A stretch of 30,421 bases of DNA from a virus. Below, one piece after another: positions 3,111-30,239 of the stretch. The stretch lies in the IMG/VR virus record IMGVR_UViG_3300030451_006426, positions 1 through 30,421 of that record. One strand, given 5' to 3'. Position 1 is the first letter of the stretch. The number at the start of each line of letters is the position of its first letter. The translations under genes were made by a program, and so were the position numbers. The notes beneath the pieces were generated by a model that worked only from the letters and a program-made list of their open reading frames with translations, searched no databases and was not told the DNA's origin.

Positions 3111-3131
3111 AGTCGGCTATGCCGACTTTTT
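3111..3131. terminator. Hairpin AGTCGGC-TAT-GCCGACT with T-run on the plus strand
   Basis: AGTCGGC (3111-3117) pairs with GCCGACT (3121-3127) over a 3-nt loop and is followed on the plus strand by TTTTT, the form of an intrinsic terminator for rightward transcription. The stop codon of the leftward amidotransferase gene (3117-3119) is inside it. It may insulate the cassette from antisense transcripts. Confidence 0.45.
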
Positions 3132-3920
3132 CATAAGATTTTTATATTTGAAAATAATATCGGCTATGACATCAACTCGTTGATGGTCCATACAACTTTC
3201 AACATAATCGTAAATCTCATTATTATTTAATTCTAAGACATCTGATATATCGAGATCATTAAACCAATCATATTGATAATCGTCCCATGAATTTAAATGT
3301 CCTCCGTAATAATTTATTTTATTATCATTTTGAGATTTAAAAGTAGTTATTGGTTGGTCCTGCCAATAGGTATTTGAAAACCAATTCGCACCTTTAAAGT
3401 TTCCTAACTTCTCATTGATGATAATAAATTTATTCGACTGACTATCTAATAAGACTAACTTATCCTTATCAATAAATTCAGCTAACTCATCTTGATAATC
3501 TTTATTTAAAATAATATTCGGATTATCCTGCAATACTGATTTTAAATAGTGTTGATTAAAATGCCATGTATCTGAACTACCATTATGAATTATCGGTATT
3601 GGTAATCGTGGTCCATTGTGCATTAAACCAATAGTTCGATTATTTTTTTGATAACTAATAAATGGGTGGCAATTCTTTTTATTAATCGCTCCTTCAGTTT
3701 TAAATCTAAAGTGGATTGCCATTTGATCAGTTTTCTTTTTATGATAATTAAAAAACTTTTTTAACTCATTGAAGTTTTTTGGACAGAATTTATCTGAAAC
3801 AAAGTTCTTTTTATTATCAAGATACATAACTCCGAAGCCGTCGGAATTTCTTTTGTAAGCCGTTTCTAAATCTTTATAGTTTAAAGATTTAAGATCATTA
3901 GCAACAATTATTAAACACAT
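3117..3920 (-). CDS. Class II glutamine amidotransferase (Ntn-hydrolase fold)
   Basis: Class II amidotransferases hydrolyse glutamine and deliver ammonia, using an N-terminal cysteine exposed after removal of the initiator Met. I start at ATG 3918-3920 rather than the in-frame TTG nine bases upstream: this start gives MCLIIVA, placing the catalytic Cys at position 2, and has GGAG at a good distance. Supporting motifs are NSDGFGVMY (residues 25-33), MAIHFRFKTEG (67-77, equivalent of GHxRxAT), NCHPF (83-87) and GLMHNG (98-103, the oxyanion-hole NG). Length is 267 residues, a single amidotransferase domain with no fused synthase, so it should act with a partner. The partner is probably the amidoligase immediately upstream, whose stop (3922-3924) is 1 nt away. 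The C-terminal 130 residues are Asn/Asp-rich and unrecognised. The actual substrate is unknown. Confidence 0.85.
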   Translation of the reverse strand: MCLIIVANDLKSLNYKDLETAYKRNSDGFGVMYLDNKKNFVSDKFCPKNFNELKKFFNYHKKKTDQMAIHFRFKTEGAINKKNCHPFISYQKNNRTIGLMHNGPRLPIPIIHNGSSDTWHFNQHYLKSVLQDNPNIILNKDYQDELAEFIDKDKLVLLDSQSNKFIIINEKLGNFKGANWFSNTYWQDQPITTFKSQNDNKINYYGGHLNSWDDYQYDWFNDLDISDVLELNNNEIYDYVESCMDHQRVDVIADIIFKYKNLMKKSA

Positions 3921-3921
3921 T

Positions 3922-5310
3922 TTATTCAACTCCTTCCTGTATTAATAGTTCATTGTTTATTCTAAAATCCTCAACAACTGATTTAAACTCTTCGTAAATC
4001 GGTTGCCATGTTTCTATATTTTCTAAATGATCAAAATATTTTTTGTCATCTAGGAACACTAAAAGATTTGAATAATCCTTGTGAATATTTTTCAACAAGT
4101 AATCCATGTAATCAGTCCATAATAAATTTTCACCATTGTTTTGATGTCCTGCTCTGATCCATGAATTAACACTATGCACAAATTCTAAATATTTAAAAAA
4201 AGAAATTTGTTTAATGTTCGATCTAAATATTCTGATTTCAACTGTATCTCTATTATCAAGATTAATAACCGAATACTTTTCGCCCTGCGTTTTAATCGGT
4301 GAATTAAAATCTCGATTAGGTTGAAATCTACAATATTGATTTTCATCTCGTCCTGCAATATCAACAATCAACTTTCTGTTTTCTGAATTATTATAAAAAC
4401 AGTTTAATCTTTTAATTTGATTTGTTGTAAATGCCTCACGACTGAAATGAATATGTAAACCACAATCTTTTCCGTGCCAAGCTTTGCATAAATTGTTCGG
4501 TGATTTTTTGAAAAATGATTTCCAAAAAACTTCCTTGTGATATTCAAATGAACAATTTGTGCTGACAACTTCAAAGCCTTGTTGAGTATCCAAGCTTCCG
4601 TCTTGTTTAAATAGAATTTGATCATTGTTAAAACAATCTCTTAATTCCTCAACTGTATCGTATCGATCATCTCGTGCATGAAGTTCGACTTCAATTCCAT
4701 AAAATAATTTTTCAATTATTTCTGTGCCTTCAGTTAAAACAAGATATGCGAGAAAAACTCGTGTTCGATAATTATCTAAATAATCGGAGTCCTCGTTGTA
4801 ATCCTCATCATGATCACAATCGCAGTTTTCGTTTTCGTGCATATACTCATCACAACGTTCACAATTGTATCCTTGGTTATCATAACAACTTTCGCAATAG
4901 ATACCTTGATAATTATTAAATTGTCTTTCATTATCAATATGGTCGATCTCTTCGCAACTATCACAAGTGAAATAGTGATCATCATAAGCTTCGGAACAAA
5001 TGGTGTCATTGTTGGTTGTATTGATTACTTCGGACTCATCAATTAATTCAAATGCAAGATGTTCATAACAATAAATTAAATCTAGTCCTGCTTCCTCAAT
5101 CGGAGTCCTGCTCTTAATTAACTTAATTAAGCTATTGTTAAAATTATCTCTTTTATATCTGTAAAAATTATTCACTGAGTCAAATTTTTGTTGAAAAGTT
5201 TTTAATCTTTCCTCACAAAAATTTTGAACTTCAACGAAAATTTTATTGAGATACTCCTCGTCATTTTTATCATACTGATTAACGTATGAAATGATTTCTC
5301 TAATATTCAT
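3922..5310 (-). CDS. Amidoligase-family (Amidoligase_2, COOH-NH2 ligase) protein with Cys-rich insert
   Basis: The C-terminal half carries the glutamine-synthetase-like fold signature of the amidoligase family, which uses ATP to join a carboxylate to an amine. Motifs are FYGIEVEL (residues 203-210, metal-binding Glu), KQDGSL...GFEVVS (236-250), CGLHIHF (283-289) and NLDNRDTVEIRIFRS (350-364). N-terminal to it is a helical region (1-95) and a cysteine-rich segment: C116/C119, C139/C142, C150/C153, C163/C165, with nearby His and Asp. These CxxC pairs look like a zinc-ribbon module and are followed by a highly acidic stretch. The start ATG 5308-5310 has an AGAAAGGA-type ribosome site. It is directly coupled to the class II glutamine amidotransferase, suggesting glutamine-derived ammonia as co-substrate. 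The acceptor is unknown. The gene is Asn/Asp/Lys-rich and more AT-rich than TerL, consistent with acquisition as a cassette. Confidence 0.85.
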   Translation of the reverse strand: MNIREIISYVNQYDKNDEEYLNKIFVEVQNFCEERLKTFQQKFDSVNNFYRYKRDNFNNSLIKLIKSRTPIEEAGLDLIYCYEHLAFELIDESEVINTTNNDTICSEAYDDHYFTCDSCEEIDHIDNERQFNNYQGIYCESCYDNQGYNCERCDEYMHENENCDCDHDEDYNEDSDYLDNYRTRVFLAYLVLTEGTEIIEKLFYGIEVELHARDDRYDTVEELRDCFNNDQILFKQDGSLDTQQGFEVVSTNCSFEYHKEVFWKSFFKKSPNNLCKAWHGKDCGLHIHFSREAFTTNQIKRLNCFYNNSENRKLIVDIAGRDENQYCRFQPNRDFNSPIKTQGEKYSVINLDNRDTVEIRIFRSNIKQISFFKYLEFVHSVNSWIRAGHQNNGENLLWTDYMDYLLKNIHKDYSNLLVFLDDKKYFDHLENIETWQPIYEEFKSVVEDFRINNELLIQEGVE

Positions 5311-9118: not shown

Positions 9119-9757
9119 ATGTATAAATATTTAGATATACCAGGTTGGTTTAATATGCACGACGCATATATGAACCTTGTCAAATACTGTGAGGATGGCG
9201 ACGACATTGTCGAGATAGGATGTTTTGCAGGTCGGTCCACAAGATTTCTGATGGACTCTTTGGATTATGCAGGTAAACACAAAGTCACCGTTCATGTGAT
9301 TGATACCTTTGAAGGCTCGGGAGACGAGCATAAGAACGTCAATTGCAATACAATGTATGATGATTTCATGAGAAATTTAGACGATTATATTCAAGACGAA
9401 AGGGTAATAGTTAATGTTAACAGATCCGATAACACCAATATTCTTGATTCTTTTAATGATGGGACTGTATTTGGGGTCATTGTAGATGGCGCCCATACCT
9501 ACGAAGCAGTCAGAGATGACGTGCAAAATTGGTGGCCCAAAATAAAAGATGGTGGCATGATAGTAGGTGATGATGTAGATTGGAAGTCAGTATACTACGG
9601 AGCTGCAGAAGGATTTAAGAAGTTTAAAATTGACAGATTTAATATCATTAATGGCAGAGAAGCATGGTTCGCATTAGTAAAGAACGACCGAAGCAACGAA
9701 GTGACGGACAGTTTAAAACTAATCCCAGGGCTAAACTCTATGAGGTCAGATGGCTAG
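9119..9757 (+). CDS. Class I SAM-dependent methyltransferase
   Basis: Rossmann-type methyltransferase of the Methyltransf_24-like group. The SAM loop is DIVEIGCFAGRSTRFL (29-44), the motif II strand is VHVIDTFEG (58-66), and VIVDGAHTYEAVRDD (120-134) plus GGMIVGDDVDW (145-155) resemble metal-dependent sugar or small-molecule O-methyltransferases (D, H and DD as putative metal ligands). At 212 residues it is a single domain. The start abuts the previous stop. There is no DNA-recognition domain, so the target is more likely a sugar, small molecule or protein than DNA. It is co-transcribed with the PP-loop protein, whose role is also unknown. Confidence 0.75.
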   Translation: MYKYLDIPGWFNMHDAYMNLVKYCEDGDDIVEIGCFAGRSTRFLMDSLDYAGKHKVTVHVIDTFEGSGDEHKNVNCNTMYDDFMRNLDDYIQDERVIVNVNRSDNTNILDSFNDGTVFGVIVDGAHTYEAVRDDVQNWWPKIKDGGMIVGDDVDWKSVYYGAAEGFKKFKIDRFNIINGREAWFALVKNDRSNEVTDSLKLIPGLNSMRSDG

Positions 9758-12115: not shown

Positions 12116-12145
12116 ATAATATATATATTTATCTATAAAAGTCAA
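12116..12145 (-). promoter_or_regulatory. Sigma70-type leftward promoter
   Basis: On the minus strand, TTGACT (12140-12145) and TATTAT (12116-12121) are separated by 18 bp. It lies in the last codons of the cyclotransferase-like gene and reads into the ribbon-helix-helix gene, giving the downstream small genes their own promoter. Confidence 0.5.
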
Positions 12146-12608
12146 GTCTCTCTGCAGAATATTCTACAGCTTTTTCTAAAGGGTCTGTGGATATCTCACA
12201 ATCTTGATAACCACCAACAATTGTGCTTAGATATCCTTCTGAAGGGGGATAAACTAATTGTTTATCAACCATACTGTAGAACATTATCTTTTGTGGCAAA
12301 AACTTATTCATATCGTCGTGCCATCTATTAACATACTTTTTAGTGTAAAGATTAGGGTATCCTTCATAGACATCCAAAGCTCTTTCACAATTCTCTGTTA
12401 TCTCGAATAATGCTCCGATCACAGAACTATCTTTAGACTCTTGCACATCTGCAACGCCTCTAAATACTAGCTCGTATCCAGGTAATGTATATGTCCCTAC
12501 GTATTTTGCTTGAGGACACCTTATTTTCATATGCGCATGATTCATATTGGAACCATAGGCAAAATAATAATTTATTACTTTTTCTTTTTCTTGCTTTCTA
12601 TTAGCCAT
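12129..12608 (-). CDS. Gamma-glutamylcyclotransferase-like (AIG2/GGCT fold) protein
   Basis: The signature NYYFAYGSNMNHAHM (residues 13-27) is the substrate-binding loop of the GGCT family, and ALDVYEGYPNLYTKKYV contains the expected catalytic Glu (YEG). GGCT enzymes release 5-oxoproline from gamma-glutamyl-amine conjugates. The 159-residue length fits a single domain. It overlaps the end of the SNF2 helicase gene by 34 nt, so it is in the same leftward unit. A phage use is not established, but the phage also encodes an amidoligase and a class II glutamine amidotransferase, and cyclotransferases act on the kind of gamma-glutamyl bond such ligases make. That functional link is inference, since the genes are about 7 kb apart. 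Confidence 0.75.
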   Translation of the reverse strand: MANRKQEKEKVINYYFAYGSNMNHAHMKIRCPQAKYVGTYTLPGYELVFRGVADVQESKDSSVIGALFEITENCERALDVYEGYPNLYTKKYVNRWHDDMNKFLPQKIMFYSMVDKQLVYPPSEGYLSTIVGGYQDCEISTDPLEKAVEYSAERLDFYR

Positions 12609-14281: not shown

Positions 14282-14331
14282 ACTTGAAATCTTACAGTAA
14301 ATACTCTAGTTATTGTAGGAAGAATTATAGA

Positions 14332-15150
14332 ATGTTGTCACACTTAGATTTATTTAGCGGTATAGGTGGATTTAGTTTAGGATTAGAATCTGCAGGGCTA
14401 GTTGAAACAGTTGCGTTTTGTGACTTTGATGACTACTGTCAGAAAGTTTTAAAAAAGAATTTTCCAGGTGTGCCTATCTATAATGATGTAAAGGAATTAA
14501 ATTATGACAAACTCAAAACAGATGGAATTAACACAATCGACATCATCACAGGAGGATATCCTTGCCAACCTTTCTCCGTCGCAGGTCGTCAAAAAGGTGA
14601 GCAAGATTCGAGACACGTCTGGCCAGAAATGTTTAGACTTATCCAAGAGCTCCGGCCGTCTTGGGTCATTGGAGAAAACGTTGCTGGGCACATTAAACTC
14701 GGTCTCGACACCGTTCTCGAGAACTTGGAGAGTGAAGGCTACTCCGCAAGGACGTTTAGTATTTCAGCTTCTAGCATCGGCGCCAACCACAAGAGAGAAC
14801 GCATCTGGATCGTGGCCAACTCCGAGAGCATCGGCAGCCATGGCAGAGAAGACAGAGAACATATGGAGCAGAGGAACACAGAGAGGAAAGCTAGAGGAGA
14901 AAGTAGCCATGTTTCCCACACCAACTACGAGAGATTGGAAGGACTCTGGGAAAAACACCAATTACGAGAAGGCAAGAGAGAAGAGCAGATTAGCTGGAAT
15001 GGCTGGTGGGAGATTGAACCCGACGTGGGTCGAGTGGCTTATGGGGTACCCAAAAGCATGGACAGACTTAAATGTTTAGGAAATTCTGTTGTGCCTCGTA
15101 TTCCTTATTTGATAGGATTAGCAATAAAAGAAACGATAGAAAATGAATAA
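14332..15150 (+). CDS. DNA cytosine-C5 methyltransferase
   Basis: I start at ATG 14332 (AGGAAG nine bases upstream; product MLSHLDLFSGIGGFSLG) and not at the upstream TTG. Motifs in order: I LDLFSGIGGFSLGLES (5-20), IV GGYPCQPFSVAGRQ (74-87, catalytic Cys78), VI GENV (114-117), VIII KRERIWIVA (154-162), then a short target-recognition region (163-225), and IX/X VGRVAYGVPKSMDRLKCLGN with SVVP. At 272 residues it is compact. It may protect phage DNA from host restriction; the target sequence cannot be predicted. No partner endonuclease is visible. Codons 58-249 also encode a second conserved-looking reading frame (next entry). The stop overlaps the next ATG. Confidence 0.9.
   Translation: MLSHLDLFSGIGGFSLGLESAGLVETVAFCDFDDYCQKVLKKNFPGVPIYNDVKELNYDKLKTDGINTIDIITGGYPCQPFSVAGRQKGEQDSRHVWPEMFRLIQELRPSWVIGENVAGHIKLGLDTVLENLESEGYSARTFSISASSIGANHKRERIWIVANSESIGSHGREDREHMEQRNTERKARGESSHVSHTNYERLEGLWEKHQLREGKREEQISWNGWWEIEPDVGRVAYGVPKSMDRLKCLGNSVVPRIPYLIGLAIKETIENE
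14504..15079 (+). CDS. Overprinted ORF inside the DNA methyltransferase gene, 191 aa
   Basis: This same-strand, different-frame ORF lies wholly within the methyltransferase gene. It has its own ATG with AAAGGA (14490-14495) eight bases upstream. Its sequence does not look random: DTSGQKCLDLSKSSGRLGSL (38-57), SRTWRVKATPQGRLVFQL (72-89), GSWPTPRAS (102-110), AMFPTPTTRDWKDSG (135-149) and a C-terminus GGRLNPTWVEWLMGYP (168-183). From memory, these blocks match a widespread family of uncharacterised phage proteins that sit with cytosine methyltransferases. The methyltransferase frame is equally conserved over the same bases, so both frames appear to code. The product's role is unknown; an accessory factor of the methyltransferase is a guess. 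The alternative is that the family is a recurrent shadow of conserved methyltransferase codons. Confidence 0.55.
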   Translation: MTNSKQMELTQSTSSQEDILANLSPSQVVKKVSKIRDTSGQKCLDLSKSSGRLGSLEKTLLGTLNSVSTPFSRTWRVKATPQGRLVFQLLASAPTTRENASGSWPTPRASAAMAEKTENIWSRGTQRGKLEEKVAMFPTPTTRDWKDSGKNTNYEKAREKSRLAGMAGGRLNPTWVEWLMGYPKAWTDLNV

Positions 15151-15463
15151 AATATATGTGACTACAAATACTAAATTACCTAATGGTGGGTATAGAGATA
15201 TTTCAGACTGTGAAAGATTTGGTTTACCAATCATTATGTTTGAAAATCCAAAGCAAATTCAAGTTAATTCCAATAGATTTGTTTTCTCAATAGAGAATAA
15301 ATTAAAAGATTTCACATCAAAAGATTACTTATTATTGATGGGGGACCCGGTATTAATCGGCATGGTTTGTGCGGTTGCTGGGAAAATTACAAATAATAAT
15401 TTTAAGGTATTGAAATGGGATAGAGAAAGTGCTATATATATTCCTATAACAATAGAATTATAA
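15143..15463 (+). CDS. Hypothetical phage protein, 106 aa
   Basis: The start ATG lies within the methyltransferase stop region (ATGAATAA), so translation is coupled. The C-terminal half contains KDYLLLMGDPVLIGMVCAVA and VLKWDRESAIYIPITIEL, a pattern common in small phage proteins next to replication genes. It is mostly beta with one short hydrophobic helix and no signal peptide. The function is unknown. Confidence 0.65.
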   Translation: MNKIYVTTNTKLPNGGYRDISDCERFGLPIIMFENPKQIQVNSNRFVFSIENKLKDFTSKDYLLLMGDPVLIGMVCAVAGKITNNNFKVLKWDRESAIYIPITIEL

Positions 15464-15474
15464 GAGGTACAAAT

Positions 15475-16038
15475 ATGGGTCTATTAGATAAAGCATATGA
15501 GCAATCAAAGATTAATACTTTAGATAGCTCAGAAGTAAAAGATCTCGGTGAAGCTTGTAACGAATTAAGTGATATTCGTAAATTCATCGCCGATAAAGAA
15601 GCAGAAATAAAAAATGCAAAAGACAGAGAGTTTCAATTAGAGAATGAAGTTATTCCTTCGATGATTGAAGGAGCAGGAGTAAAATCTCTTACTCTAAATG
15701 ACGGCTCAAAAGTTTCCGTCAAAGATCAACTACGTGCAAACATTACCATGGAAAACGAAGACTATTGTTTTTCTAGGTTGCAAGAACTAGGGCTTGATGA
15801 TGTCATCAAGAACGAAGTAAAGTTGACCTTTGGTCGTGGTCAAGATTCCGACGCTACTAATTTAATTACAGAGTTGCAAGACAGAGGTCTGTATCCGAGT
15901 AATAAAAAGGCAGTGCCCTGGAATACACTCTCCAAATTATTAGAGGAACAGATTGCCAAAGGTTCGATGACATCTGTTGATCAAGAAAAGTTTGGAGTTT
16001 ACACCTTTAAGAAGGTGAAGATCGAACGAAAAAAATAA
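15475..16038 (+). CDS. Conserved phage replication-module protein, 187 aa
   Basis: An N-terminal coiled coil (SDIRKFIADKEAEIKNAKDR) is followed by VIPSMIEGAGVKSLTLNDG, DDVIKNEVKLTFGRGQDSDA and a C-terminal FGVYTFKKVKIERK. I recognise this layout from many phages, where it lies just before the SSB-like gene and primase. The biochemical role is unknown to me; binding to DNA or to the SSB is plausible from position. The ribosome site is AAGAGGTAC before ATG 15475. Confidence 0.65.
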   Translation: MGLLDKAYEQSKINTLDSSEVKDLGEACNELSDIRKFIADKEAEIKNAKDREFQLENEVIPSMIEGAGVKSLTLNDGSKVSVKDQLRANITMENEDYCFSRLQELGLDDVIKNEVKLTFGRGQDSDATNLITELQDRGLYPSNKKAVPWNTLSKLLEEQIAKGSMTSVDQEKFGVYTFKKVKIERKK

Positions 16039-24625: not shown

Positions 24626-27600
24626 TATGTATTCCTTTGTTTAGCTAACTCTTGATAAATTGCGTCATCGCCTATTAATGTATCAATTGCTAGAGCAGAA
24701 TCAAGGTTTTGTGTTCCTCCAAAACCTGAAACTACACTACCTGCTGTAGAACTTATCGGTTTGGTCGTGGTCGGTGGGGCGGGAGGCGTGATCTCTTCTT
24801 GTTTGAACCCTTCTGGTATAACAAAAGTTGAATCAAAATCGCCATCGTTAACATTAATTTTCATATTATTTTTTCTAATTTTCATAATCTCTGGATACGC
24901 TAGATTAAATGGATTGACTATATCTCTACCCAATTCTTGTCTTAGTTCTCTAAAGTTTTGATTAAATGCCTGTCTCACACCTTCCCCTGGAGTATAAGGT
25001 AAGTATCTTCCTGTAATTATAGCTTGTCTTTCAGCTTTTGTGACACGACTTAGTTCTTTTAAAACTTTTCCTCTTTTAGCTCCTAACAATAATGCGTCTT
25101 TGTATAGGTTGTGCATCTGTTTAAAGTTTTGAAATCTCACTCTTTCTGATTTAATGTATTGATCTACAATTTCAGCAGGAGAAACAAAACCTCCTTTTAA
25201 TACATCACCAACAAAAGATGCTCTTGCACTATCATTCTTTTTATTAAAATCTGTTACTATAAAAGGCATCGCTTTTACAGGATCAGCTTCGATGGCTCTG
25301 AACCCAAAGATACCGCCGAACTCATCGCTCATATCAAAAACTTGTCCATACTTATCTGGTCGTTTATCTGTCAAACCAAAGGTTCCTGCTTTAAATAATC
25401 TATTTATCTGACTTACTGAACCAGGAGCAAATGTTTCTAGAACATGCATTCCTCCTTTATAAATTTTTTCTCCTGTAGAATCTCCAGGTCTAAAGACTTG
25501 TCGACCATCTCTTGACCTTCCGTTTCTTGCAACGATGTCTGCAAAAGCTTCAAAGAAAATAGACTCTGAGATAAAAGGTTTTGATAATTCAAAGAAGCTA
25601 ACTGCTCCAGCATCTAGTAAATATTTATTTAAACTTTCTCCTGACTGTTGTCCTTTAGCTGCTTCATTAAGGATTGTATTTACAGGTCTAATCAGTGTGT
25701 CGTATGGAAAGATATAACTTAAATCCATGTATTTTACTTTACCTGTTTCTTCATCTCTACTGACAGGCATCAACAAACCATTAGTTGACCAAGAAGGAAC
25801 AAAACTTCTAAGTGCTCTCATCTCATCATCAGTCATATTAGCTAATGATTTACCAAACTCCACTAGCCCAGCAGGGACAACTGCTGCTGTTGTAGCAACA
25901 CCTGCTAATCTTCGAAGTCCCGTTTGTTTAAATCCTTCAACTTGTAGTTCTCTTAAACCTCTTTGAATTGTGTTGTAGCCCGTTCTAATAATCTCAGCCG
26001 GGAAAGCTACAAAGGTACCGAGAGGTAATCTTCTTAATGTTTTAATAAACTCTCCTACATATTCGTAGTTAGGTATGTTGTGTTTTGTAATCTGAGCAGC
26101 CATGTTTTCATAGAAAGTTTCTAGTAATTTATCCCCCTCCATTTTAACTCCTCCAGTCATATTTAAAAATTTACCATCAGGACTTATATCAACCACTCGG
26201 TCAAAGATAGGATCATTCCTTGTTACCTTTCTACCAAGAAGTTTACTGTATGCCATGAGATTTTTAGGATCAAAAATATTATCTGCTGTCACCCCTAATG
26301 CATCAAAGTTCTTTTTGATAGAGATTAGTTCCGCTTCAAAATTAAAATTTTTCCATAGATTATCTTCAGCTAGGTAAGCACGTCTTGCTTTATCTGCTAA
26401 TTTAGAAACGCTAGTTAAAGTTTTGTTCATACCTTCATTAAAATTGCCTGTATAAAAATCTGTTCCTACATCCTTTGCTAATCTATCTGCCTCTCCAGCC
26501 ACAGGGTTTGTGCCATTAATTCCTAAACGAGCGTTTCTTAATCTTCTTGCTTTATCTAATGCGCTGTTGCCTGTTACATCTTTTAAAGCAGCTCTGAAAA
26601 GCCTCGCTGTTTGAGCAGGGTTTTGAAATAAAATATTACCATTCATGGTAGTAAATAAAGCTGCGGATATCACGTTTCTAATATGAGTAAAAGGAGAGTA
26701 AATAGTTTTAGCTTGTTGAGATAAACTCTTTGGTACTAATACCATCCACTTGTATAAATTATTTAGAACGCTGTCTTTTAACATTTGATCGGTGCTATTG
26801 ATTGCGTCAGCCACTGGTTTAAAAGTATACTTACCATCTAATACGCTTGGAACTATATCAGCATTATTAGTTTTAATTTCAACTATGTCGTCCTTTAAGT
26901 TATCAAGATTTAAATTAACATCTTTATACTCTGGTAAAATTTTTATTGCATCAATAGCATCTTGCTGTGAATCGAAAAATAAACGACTTTTCACTGCTCC
27001 CCCTGACCTTGGCATAATCTTTAGAGTGTCTTGATAAAGTTTATTGTGAGTTTGAAGTTGAGCCATTATCTGTGCTTGTTTAGAATTTGTGTTAGCGATA
27101 TTATAAAAAGGATCTTCTATTTCTCCTAATAACTCTCTAATTACAGGGTTTTTCAAAGTTCTTTGTTTAAATAATCCTTCATCTAATTCTATTTTTGCTT
27201 CGTCTTTTAATAGTTTTTTAAAACCCACCATACCGATATCAGGCTTGTCAAACAAACTTCTACCTCTAGTGTTTACTATCATCTCAACAGCCTCTTTAGC
27301 TTTTTGTGGAGCAGTGTTTTCAAAATAATCTTTGGCATCTGCATCTATTTGTTTTTCAATGCGAGATTGTAGTTCCTTTCCTCTAGCTCTTTCTACTCTA
27401 GGATCTACTCTTTGAGGTTGAGCAGCCTGTTCCTCAGCGAATTTAGCTTTTACTTTATTTGTAGCGGCTCTTCTAGTTTCATCACTATTTTTATAAGCTT
27501 GAGTTAGGGCGACTCTATATACTCTTTCCGCTTTTTTCATTATTTCTGCTGTGGGTCTAAACTGACCATCAGAAAATAATTTATTCATCAATCCCTTCTC

Positions 27601-29085
27601 TGTTTTAAATATTTTATATTCTCTGTTCATATATTTACCTAATTGAGTAGAGAATGTGTTACTTAATTCTTCAAGTGTTGTTTTGATTTCTCTAACTTTG
27701 TCTAATTCTTTTTGAGGTAAGCTAGCTTCATCAAGAACATCTTTAGCCTCTTTGATTAAAGGCTTTAAAAAAGATTCGTTAAGTCTTAAAGAATTCAAAT
27801 CTATTTGATATCTGCTTTCATATAATAAATTTTCTAATTTTGTTATATCATCGTCGGACGCTTTTAGAGTATTCTTCATATAGTCATGAAGTCTTTGTCT
27901 TTTTTGAAAAGCAGGGTTGTTAACTTCAAACTCTCTGCCTCTAGCGTTGACTTTGGTTTTTGTTCTTGGAATAGAATAAGAGGTATTAGCTGCAGGGCCG
28001 TCAACGATAAGTCCTTTTTCATCAACTACAAAATCTGTTTTTTTGAAGTCACCAAAATCTTTTAATCTTTCATCTATTAATTTTGTAAACTTGGTAAATA
28101 CTTCTTGCTTGTCGCCACCTGCAACCTTCAAACCTTGCTTTGCAATTTTCTCTGCAAGTTGTCCTAGATCTTCACTTATCTGTTGAGACTTTAAAACAAA
28201 TGTAGTAGCTGCTTGATCGCCATCTTTTAAAATATTAAAAGCTCTACCACCTAATACACCATCAGATGTAAGTTTATTTAAACCTGCACCTATTTTACTT
28301 TGAATAGTGCTACGATCAAATTGTCTAGCTAAAGGTGTTTTCTTTACAGCTTGTGATATACCAGAGATGGTGGCTCCAAGACCTGCACCAATGGCTCCAC
28401 TTTCAACTGCAAACTTAAAACGATTAGTAAATTTTCTAAAAGCCTCTTCTCTGCCTTCTAGTCCTTCATTTTTATTTGTTTCTGTAGGGCCTCCAATTGT
28501 GTCTCCGATTGTTCCAAAGTCCTCAGTGTACGCTAAGCCCTCACCAACTGTTGATCCTAATAATCCTCCACCGCCAATTCTTAATTTACTTTTTAAATCT
28601 AATTTAAATAGGTCTTTATCAATATCTTGTCTTTCTCTTAAACTTTTTCCAACAACATTTTTATCAGCGTATTGCCCTGCTCTTTTTGCATTAACTGCTC
28701 TCTTAGCAAGACCTGCGCCTATTCTATAACCTGCAACTCCCGGTATACCTAATTGTATAAGTCCTTCAGTTAGTTTTCCTGTTAAGGTTTCTTCTGCTAT
28801 TTCTTCAAATGGATTTATCTTATCAAAGAATTCTTCAACACCTGTGGCTGTATCTGTGTCTAACCCTAAATCAATAAGTTCTGCTCCTAGAGAGAAGACC
28901 CCCTCTGGTATTTTTAAAGCACCTGATGCTATACCTGCAAAAAAAGATTTAAAAAAGCCGGGAGACTTATCTTCTTTCTTTTCTTTTTCTTGGTTTAGAA
29001 AATTTTTTATTTTTACTTCGGCTTCTTGTTGAGAGAGGCCGTCTTTTAATTCAAACTTTTCGCCTTGATATTCATAGATGGCCAT
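24625..29085 (-). CDS. Large internal virion (ejection) protein, 1486 aa
   Basis: By far the longest gene. The N-terminus MAIYEYQGEKFELKDGLSQQ resembles the short beta-helix cap common to phage internal virion proteins. Then come amphipathic, Gly/Ala-rich helices (FFAGIASGALKIPEGVFSLG, GAIGAGLGATISGISQAV), a long charged coiled-coil-like centre, and a C-terminal region with GLRRLAGVATTAAVVPAGLV and Pro/Thr-rich ITPPAPPTTTKPISSTAGSV. Ejected proteins of this size usually form a trans-envelope channel for DNA. It sits between two other virion genes, with TAATG coupling downstream. No transglycosylase motif was found in it; that activity may be in the following 508-residue protein. Confidence 0.7.
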   Translation of the reverse strand: MAIYEYQGEKFELKDGLSQQEAEVKIKNFLNQEKEKKEDKSPGFFKSFFAGIASGALKIPEGVFSLGAELIDLGLDTDTATGVEEFFDKINPFEEIAEETLTGKLTEGLIQLGIPGVAGYRIGAGLAKRAVNAKRAGQYADKNVVGKSLRERQDIDKDLFKLDLKSKLRIGGGGLLGSTVGEGLAYTEDFGTIGDTIGGPTETNKNEGLEGREEAFRKFTNRFKFAVESGAIGAGLGATISGISQAVKKTPLARQFDRSTIQSKIGAGLNKLTSDGVLGGRAFNILKDGDQAATTFVLKSQQISEDLGQLAEKIAKQGLKVAGGDKQEVFTKFTKLIDERLKDFGDFKKTDFVVDEKGLIVDGPAANTSYSIPRTKTKVNARGREFEVNNPAFQKRQRLHDYMKNTLKASDDDITKLENLLYESRYQIDLNSLRLNESFLKPLIKEAKDVLDEASLPQKELDKVREIKTTLEELSNTFSTQLGKYMNREYKIFKTEKGLMNKLFSDGQFRPTAEIMKKAERVYRVALTQAYKNSDETRRAATNKVKAKFAEEQAAQPQRVDPRVERARGKELQSRIEKQIDADAKDYFENTAPQKAKEAVEMIVNTRGRSLFDKPDIGMVGFKKLLKDEAKIELDEGLFKQRTLKNPVIRELLGEIEDPFYNIANTNSKQAQIMAQLQTHNKLYQDTLKIMPRSGGAVKSRLFFDSQQDAIDAIKILPEYKDVNLNLDNLKDDIVEIKTNNADIVPSVLDGKYTFKPVADAINSTDQMLKDSVLNNLYKWMVLVPKSLSQQAKTIYSPFTHIRNVISAALFTTMNGNILFQNPAQTARLFRAALKDVTGNSALDKARRLRNARLGINGTNPVAGEADRLAKDVGTDFYTGNFNEGMNKTLTSVSKLADKARRAYLAEDNLWKNFNFEAELISIKKNFDALGVTADNIFDPKNLMAYSKLLGRKVTRNDPIFDRVVDISPDGKFLNMTGGVKMEGDKLLETFYENMAAQITKHNIPNYEYVGEFIKTLRRLPLGTFVAFPAEIIRTGYNTIQRGLRELQVEGFKQTGLRRLAGVATTAAVVPAGLVEFGKSLANMTDDEMRALRSFVPSWSTNGLLMPVSRDEETGKVKYMDLSYIFPYDTLIRPVNTILNEAAKGQQSGESLNKYLLDAGAVSFFELSKPFISESIFFEAFADIVARNGRSRDGRQVFRPGDSTGEKIYKGGMHVLETFAPGSVSQINRLFKAGTFGLTDKRPDKYGQVFDMSDEFGGIFGFRAIEADPVKAMPFIVTDFNKKNDSARASFVGDVLKGGFVSPAEIVDQYIKSERVRFQNFKQMHNLYKDALLLGAKRGKVLKELSRVTKAERQAIITGRYLPYTPGEGVRQAFNQNFRELRQELGRDIVNPFNLAYPEIMKIRKNNMKINVNDGDFDSTFVIPEGFKQEEITPPAPPTTTKPISSTAGSVVSGFGGTQNLDSALAIDTLIGDDAIYQELAKQRNT

Positions 29086-29096
29086 AGCCTAGCCCT

Positions 29097-30239
29097 CTAT
29101 TCTACTTTTCTTACTTCAGGTTCAGGTTTAGTAAACATAGGTGTTCCGAATTCTTGTTCAATAGCGTCGTTTGCTTTCTCTCTTGCCTCATCTCCAGCAC
29201 CTAACTCTGACTCATAAAATCTTAAATACTCTGTAAATCTTTCATTTTTTAACTCAGCAATTGTTTTACCTGATCTTGCTGTTGTAATTTCAATGGCCTT
29301 TTCTCTTGCCCCTGCTAAATCTAGTGTGGAATCTGATGCCATTAAATCCTCTACTAATTGACCAAAAGTCCCTTTCTTCTGCCCTCTAGCCAACTCATCC
29401 TCTGCACCTTTGATTGCTAGCATGTCAATTGCTCTTTCGTCTTTAATTGCTTCTCTACCTAAAGCTGCAAAAGTTTGTAATGGATCTTTCGCAGATTTAG
29501 CAACCTTCTCTGCAAAATTACCACCTCTAGCAGACGCTAGATTTAAACCAAACTGTGCTAGTTGTAATAAGCCCTGTTGCTTTAGTCCCTCTCTAGGATC
29601 GCCTAAAATCTTTTTATATAAATCAGATCTCTCTCTTACTAATGCTTCTAATTCTGATAGTTTATCCTTTTCAGGCCCGAGAGGATCTCTTTGATTTTCT
29701 TGTTCTTCAATCTTTTCTTTTATTTCGATATCTTGCCCTGGTCCCTCTTGAACCACTAATGATTCTTTTACCTTTTCAACATCACCTGTTTTAAGAGCAT
29801 CTGTAAGATCTTCTGGCACGGGGGTGGCTTTATCTTCTACTGCTTTGACCTCTTTTTGTTCTTGAACTAATTGACTTTTTAAATTAGCTAATTCAGCTTT
29901 GTCAGCAGAAGCGTCTATTCCGTTTGCTTCTTTATATGCAATTGTTTTTTCTAATAAAGCTATTTGATCTTTAAGATTGGAAGCAGTAGAGAAAAACTGT
30001 CCTTGTTTGATTGCGTCTTGTTTAGCTTCTGTATCAAGCATTTCCGTTGTGGCTTCATCAAATTTTTGTTTTACGTTAATAGGCTTTGTAAAATTTTCTG
30101 AATAATCACGTTTATTTGCCTCTCCCCCCGGTGCAAACTTTCTAACTACACCACCATTAGCAAATGCAGGTAAACCATACATACGTAGCTGGTCCTTGGT
30201 CGGACGGCGTTGAAACATTGGTCTATCTAAAATAGCCAT
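29097..30239 (-). CDS. Putative internal virion/structural protein, 380 aa
   Basis: The N-terminus MAILDRPMFQRRPTKDQLRM leads into PAFANGGVVRKFAPGGE, a Gly-rich pattern often seen at the start of phage virion proteins. A long charged region follows with coiled-coil character (NLKDQIALLEKTIAYKEANG, LANLKSQLVQEQKEVKAVED), then GLLQLAQFGLNLASARGGNF. ATG overlaps the upstream TAA (TAATG). It is the gene before the large ejection protein, the usual place for a smaller partner. The exact role is unknown. Confidence 0.6.
   Translation of the reverse strand: MAILDRPMFQRRPTKDQLRMYGLPAFANGGVVRKFAPGGEANKRDYSENFTKPINVKQKFDEATTEMLDTEAKQDAIKQGQFFSTASNLKDQIALLEKTIAYKEANGIDASADKAELANLKSQLVQEQKEVKAVEDKATPVPEDLTDALKTGDVEKVKESLVVQEGPGQDIEIKEKIEEQENQRDPLGPEKDKLSELEALVRERSDLYKKILGDPREGLKQQGLLQLAQFGLNLASARGGNFAEKVAKSAKDPLQTFAALGREAIKDERAIDMLAIKGAEDELARGQKKGTFGQLVEDLMASDSTLDLAGAREKAIEITTARSGKTIAELKNERFTEYLRFYESELGAGDEAREKANDAIEQEFGTPMFTKPEPEVRKVE

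Follow-up and report, generated by a model that had tools for sequence, protein, structure and literature searches.

Two reading frames at the methyltransferase locus

The IMG/VR virus record IMGVR_UViG_3300030451_006426, analysed here as a single stretch of 30,421 nucleotides (the window), encodes a C5-cytosine methyltransferase, termed alpha, and a second protein, termed beta, whose gene is overprinted within the alpha gene on the same strand (Table 1). Alpha most likely starts at the ATG given in the table, which follows a probable ribosome-binding site and replaces the TTG at 14284 given in the ORF finder listing.

Table 1. Positions of the overlapping genes and their features in the window
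Feature	Position	Strand	Basis
Likely alpha ribosome-binding site (GTAGGAA-like)	14315..14321	+	sequence reading
Alpha subunit, C5-cytosine methyltransferase, 272 aa	14332..15150	+	PF00145, PHROG 363, AlphaFold2 model
Beta ribosome-binding site AAAGGA, within the alpha codons for K-E	14490..14495	+	motif and codon bias
Beta subunit, overprinted gene, 191 aa	14504..15079	+	frame +1 of alpha; PHROG 1008; frame-specific selection
Beta N-terminal region, ~103 aa, over alpha motifs III/IV–VIII	14504..14812	+	both frames constrained
Beta module 1, type F, WPTPRASAAMAEK..., candidate target-recognition module	14813..14911	+	module catalogue
Alpha linker facing the beta modules, probably disordered	14818..15012	+	pLDDT, composition, dN/dS
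Beta module 2, type A, FPTPTTRDWKDSG..., candidate target-recognition module	14912..15004	+	module catalogue
Beta motif-IX-like segment, LNPTWVEWLMGYP	15014..15052	+	mostly invariant in 54 homologues; low dN/dS
Alpha motif X (GNSVVP), begins the alpha-only C-terminal part	15079..15096	+	alignment A2

Alpha possesses C5-methyltransferase motifs I, IV (PCQ), VI (ENV), VIII and X, and the segments DLFSGIGG, GGYPCQPFS, ENV, RERIW and GNSVVP are mostly invariant in alignment A2, including residues G250, N251 and P255 of motif X. It matches PHROG 363 (E 5e-77) and PF00145 (E 2e-43), the latter over profile positions 1–220 of 324 only. AlphaFold2 models most of the catalytic domain and the C-terminal helix (residues 256–271, predicted to follow motif X) with confidence, and the closest PDB structure to the model is M.HhaI. 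Neither a TRD nor motif IX was seen in alpha, in which the Pfam match ends at position 220 of 324 and residues 167–227, a linker, are modelled as disordered (pLDDT < 50). Across the family S, E, R, G, T, N and Q are abundant in this linker and hydrophobic residues make up 18% of it, compared with 30% of the beta modules and 40% of alpha motifs I–VIII. Alpha therewith fits the large polypeptide of the M.EcoHK31I type, with motifs I–VIII and X and without IX. The initial annotation had placed motifs IV to X of the methyltransferase over the bases shared with beta; motifs III/IV–VIII do lie there, followed by the linker, motif IX was not seen in this frame, and motif X sits at and past the end of the overlap.

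The ORF call for beta in that annotation (ATG 14504, stop ending at 15079, 191 codons) proved exact and lies in frame alpha+1, with AAAGGA eight bases before the ATG and with both quoted blocks, SWPTPRAS and GGRLNPTWVEWLMGYP, in its product. Beta matches PHROG 1008 (E 9e-31) and no Pfam or NCBIfam family. The openness of its frame bears on whether the ORF could be a non-functional shadow that the codon use of the methyltransferase happens to keep open. Synonymous shuffles that preserve alpha place on average 8.4 stops in the beta frame and leave it open in 0 of 20,000 trials; resampling by the codon usage of the window gives 10.8 stops and an open frame in 0 of 5,000; and the third frame over the same overlap holds 13 actual stops.

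Distribution of the overlap and selection in both frames

Searches of IMG/VR with beta and with alpha yielded 158 viral loci with both ORFs, the window included; some contigs are present twice, and 109 loci are unique and complete. Beta is in frame alpha+1, open and homologous in all 158. Among the 140 viral loci with complete ends the overlap spans 498–1259 bp, over which the third frame contains 13–36 stops. A search of bacterial genomes revealed the +1 overlap in 78 of 80 loci. The exceptions are L201, in which alpha has an HNH-type insertion, and L224, which has a frameshift; L207, counted among the overlapping loci, is a frame-broken copy. The initial annotation had stated that proteins with such features recur beside phage cytosine methyltransferases; this holds for the second product, homologues of which occur throughout viruses and bacteria. 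It had also named stops in relatives as a mark of a shadow, and stops do not break the second frame in these relatives. We also considered beta as an independent gene that overlaps by accident and rejected this, as no convincing free-standing beta was found among the loci examined.

By record titles the genomes from the bacterial search include Bacteroidota, Bacillota, several proteobacterial classes, Actinomycetota, Acidobacteriota, Chlorobiota, Verrucomicrobiota, Synergistota, Nitrospirota and others, and named phages with the pair infect Paenibacillus, Lacticaseibacillus, Escherichia, Salmonella and Mycobacterium. Both genes are annotated in some phage records (as an ‘internal gene’, g55, in Paenibacillus phage Shelly, and as ‘Mte8-like’ in E. 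coli phages) and alpha alone in others. In a phylum sample for one Paenibacillus genome (G002), 4 of 299 genomes matched at 1e-8, G002 included, and the overlap family is therefore widespread yet sparse. Two bacterial loci have unusual arrangements. In L201 (1144–2774) an HNH-like stretch, possibly an intron or other mobile element, interrupts alpha after its N-terminal part and before motif IV, and further downstream the same ORF continues into beta. In L231 (2427–4650), from an Actinoplanes genome, the beta frame is open for ~740 aa into an apparent downstream gene, a possible fusion.

Beta is not confined to the overlap. In L048, L052, L062/L063, L069, L078 and L079 it runs 72–230 codons beyond the alpha stop, where the alpha frame has 6–19 stops and the third frame 3–17, and in all of these loci except L052 the extension resembles modules found inside the overlap elsewhere (in one case with 76% identity over 51 aa). 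Non-overlapped stretches of the beta family, which the initial annotation had proposed to look for, thus exist, and because several relatives extend beta beyond the alpha stop, beta is not a shadow.

Substitution rates were compared in 37 disjoint pairs of unique loci, with changes classified by their effect in both frames for dN/dS and with statistics that ignore phylogeny. Synonymous change at unchanged alpha residues falls from 12.5% outside the overlap to 5.0% inside it. Within the overlap alpha codons vary most at their first position, which coincides with the third position of beta codons. Upstream, before the overlap begins, alpha is constrained (dN/dS 0.18) and the beta frame is neutral-like (0.79 [0.57–1.13]). 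Over the alpha catalytic motifs, along beta codons 1–100, both frames are constrained (alpha 0.18, beta 0.39 [0.29–0.50]); in the variable region beta remains so (0.29) and alpha is nearly neutral (0.79 [0.69–0.96]); and over the final 30 beta codons the values are 0.15 for beta and 0.49 for alpha. Bacterial loci show the same tendency, with third-position differences in alpha of 0.27 inside and 0.47 outside the overlap in 15 independent pairs. Constraint is divided between the two frames, and the earlier suggestion that both are conserved is borne out by rates that show selection on each, the changes not being synonymous solely in the methyltransferase frame. Beta is a real, selected coding gene. 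The shuffles, the frame-specific rates and the extensions past alpha together refute the shadow reading, for which no supporting observation was found and to which we assign next to no probability.

The start signals of beta are likewise under selection. A motif of the AGGA/GGAG/AAGG type lies just before beta in 101 of the 109 unique loci, and the alpha lysine codon within this site is AAG in 85 of 87 loci, compared with 255 of 723 lysine codons elsewhere in alpha (p 1e-32). The alpha tyrosine codon that supplies the AT of the beta ATG is TAT in 56 of 56. This codon bias favours independent initiation over frameshifting. A programmed +1 frameshift could be imagined to fuse alpha motifs I–VIII to the TRD and motif IX of beta, as the beta modules begin at 14813 and alpha motif VIII ends at 14817, so that a shift there would join both. 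We regard this as very unlikely, given the strong selection on the beta ribosome-binding site and start codon, the selection on the N-terminal 100 beta codons even though they would be absent from such a fusion, and the lack of motif X in the product that would result.

A modular variable region and a motif-IX-like end in beta

The variable region of beta is a tandem array of 1–6 units of ~40 aa that start with WPTP or a similar sequence, a length similar to that of the TRDs in multispecific phage methyltransferases. Modules were cut by regular expression and then clustered by single linkage, and on this basis 107 unique loci contain 336 modules, which fall into 56 clusters and are arranged in 70 different orders; boundaries and cluster numbers depend on both steps. 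Common module types are found in as many as 20 neighbour contexts. The two types in the window each have 11, among 16 occurrences of type F and 33 of type A.

Module turnover by whole-module gain and loss is evident among close relatives. The array of the window is F-A and that of its closest relative (L082) is J-F-A, their constant 5' parts being 98.7% identical, and two other loci with an identical constant 5' part, L086 (G-I-E) and L089 (G-E), are one whole module apart. Such gains and losses of whole modules separate loci whose 5' DNA is up to 100% identical, and 337 of 397 pairs (which are not independent of one another) with at least 88% identity in the 5' part differ in their array. A strict filter for modules that had moved recently between distant backgrounds (identity of at least 90% in the module and at most 78% in the 5' part) returned none, and turnover is therefore shown among close relatives only.

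The end of beta, LNPTWVEWLMGYP, resembles C5-methyltransferase motif IX (compare PRRLTPKECQKLQGFPDWF in a canonical enzyme), with a moderate likeness, and is placed just before motif X of alpha. With a broad profile of this segment the motif-IX window ranked first in 12 of 28 canonical enzymes (2.7 expected, p 4e-6), although about half of these 12 top matches come from one clade and are non-independent, and two are not recognisable motif IX; a narrow profile ranked it first in 3 of 23, which is not significant. In L062 (4112–4803), L069, L078 and L079, extra WPTP modules follow the motif-IX-like segment, beyond alpha.

Modelled by itself, beta did not reach a confident fold (pLDDT 45), and its N-terminal region was predicted, with low confidence, as a helix and a beta-hairpin. 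Comparison of beta with Pfam and PDB recovered no relative, Foldseek matches were meaningless, and profile comparison with single-chain enzymes of the SPbeta type gave no match.

A probable split methyltransferase

We posit that the two overlapping ORFs encode one split, heteromeric C5-cytosine methyltransferase of the M.EcoHK31I kind, a reading that we consider highly probable. Alpha, with motifs I–VIII and X, would form the catalytic domain, and beta, translated from its own ribosome-binding site inside alpha, would supply the target-recognition region, which in the window would consist of the two tandem WPTP modules. The motif-IX-like segment of beta would pack against motif X of alpha, and the alpha linker could be a largely unconstrained, disordered tether that needs only an open frame to reach motif X. 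The assignment of catalysis to alpha and recognition to beta follows from the apparent division of labour, namely the limit of the Pfam match, the disordered linker and the motif-IX-like end. The two proteins would act as a complex in which the modules recognise DNA, presumably one target per module, and the purpose of such an orphan phage methyltransferase may, most simply, be to shield phage DNA from host restriction. Beta most likely represents the subunit of this enzyme that carries the TRD and motif IX, and is therefore probably essential to activity, not an optional modifier. The initial annotation had suggested that the second protein may assist, regulate or diversify the specificity of the methyltransferase; of these roles target specificity is the best supported, and that of an optional modifier appears less apt.

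Some observations count against a split enzyme: beta lacks a confident model, a Pfam or PDB match and a profile match to the SPbeta-type enzymes, and its end is only moderately similar to motif IX. The absence of detectable homology to known TRDs would also suit a beta that is selected but separate, for example an anti-restriction, DNA-mimic or regulatory accessory, with alpha a reduced enzyme that keeps its recognition residues in the linker. The near-neutral evolution and modelled disorder of the alpha variable region argue against this, as do the motif-IX-like segment with which beta ends right before motif X, the occurrence of beta only together with alpha in viral and bacterial loci, and the turnover of its modules in the manner of specificity modules. 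We thus consider a separate accessory unlikely and favour the split enzyme.

Among known systems M.EcoHK31I is the closest in kind. Its small polypeptide is translated from an overlapping alternative frame, and activity requires both polypeptides; M.EaeI is also a two-polypeptide C5-methyltransferase. Compared by description only, M.EcoHK31I and the alpha/beta pair share the two polypeptides, a large polypeptide with motifs I–VIII and X but without IX, and the overlapping frame. With this precedent and the widespread occurrence of the family, the initial description of such a sense overlap as rare has to be qualified, although the overlap is unusually long and deeply conserved for one on the same strand, with a measurable division of labour across many bacterial groups and phages. 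M.EcoHK31I (target YGGCCR) has motifs I–VIII and X in its large polypeptide and motif IX in the small one, with its predicted TRD in the large subunit (PMC3404938). That prediction counts against the split enzyme proposed here and in favour of a separate accessory; in the present family, unlike M.EcoHK31I, it is the small subunit beta that appears to hold the TRD, as a variable array of modules. M.AquI, a C5-methyltransferase naturally split into two polypeptides, is divided inside its variable region and its small subunit holds motifs IX–X (PMC3404938); it is a split enzyme like alpha/beta but differs in having both of these motifs in the small subunit. The Bacillus phage enzymes M.SPRI, M.phi3TI, M.H2I and SPbeta mtbP are single-chain C5-methyltransferases with several tandem TRDs (PMC8936443). 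Such multispecific enzymes resemble beta in that separable modules stand in tandem between motifs VIII and IX, in their case within one polypeptide and one frame, whereas the beta modules lie in a second frame and a second protein.

The alpha/beta family combines features of M.EcoHK31I and of the tandem-TRD phage enzymes. PHROG 1008 and PHROG 363 already cover beta and alpha as a pair of families; both are labelled only ‘DNA methyltransferase’, and their entries do not record a split-enzyme role, the overlap or the module structure. A search confined to the open literature yielded nothing specific on this overlap in phages and no description of a split enzyme combined with a module array in a second frame. 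The array of interchangeable modules in the second frame, as the variable region of beta, is what is new beyond the initial annotation. It appears reasonably likely that a widespread phage and prophage family keeps changing its recognition modules in a second frame, such that specificity would evolve through dual-frame cassettes and the alpha linker would be mainly a by-product of another gene. The family provides a large natural data set for research on overlapping genes, with more than a hundred distinct alleles. It also suggests that many annotations as ‘DNA cytosine methyltransferase’ describe half-enzymes, the specificity subunit of which is often unannotated, and target sequences predicted from alpha alone would therefore be wrong. 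Should each module read a single target, the catalogue of modules would serve as an inventory of parts from which to predict the restriction systems that a phage evades.

Other genes in the window include a second, unrelated methyltransferase (Methyltransf_24/TylF-like; 9119–9754, + strand) and two ORFs on the minus strand, of 1486 aa (24628–29085) and 380 aa (29100–30239), with no PHROG match at E 0.001. Genes for a gamma-glutamyl cyclotransferase (AIG2-like; 12132–12608), a class-II glutamine amidotransferase-like protein (3120–3929) and a weakly amidoligase-like protein (3925–5310), all on the minus strand, form a possible set for peptide or amide modification. Directly 3' of alpha, two plus-strand genes (15143–15460 and 15475–16035) match Pfam families named after gp32 and gp33 of phage Pam3, a cyanophage, and these genes may point to a cyanobacterial host.
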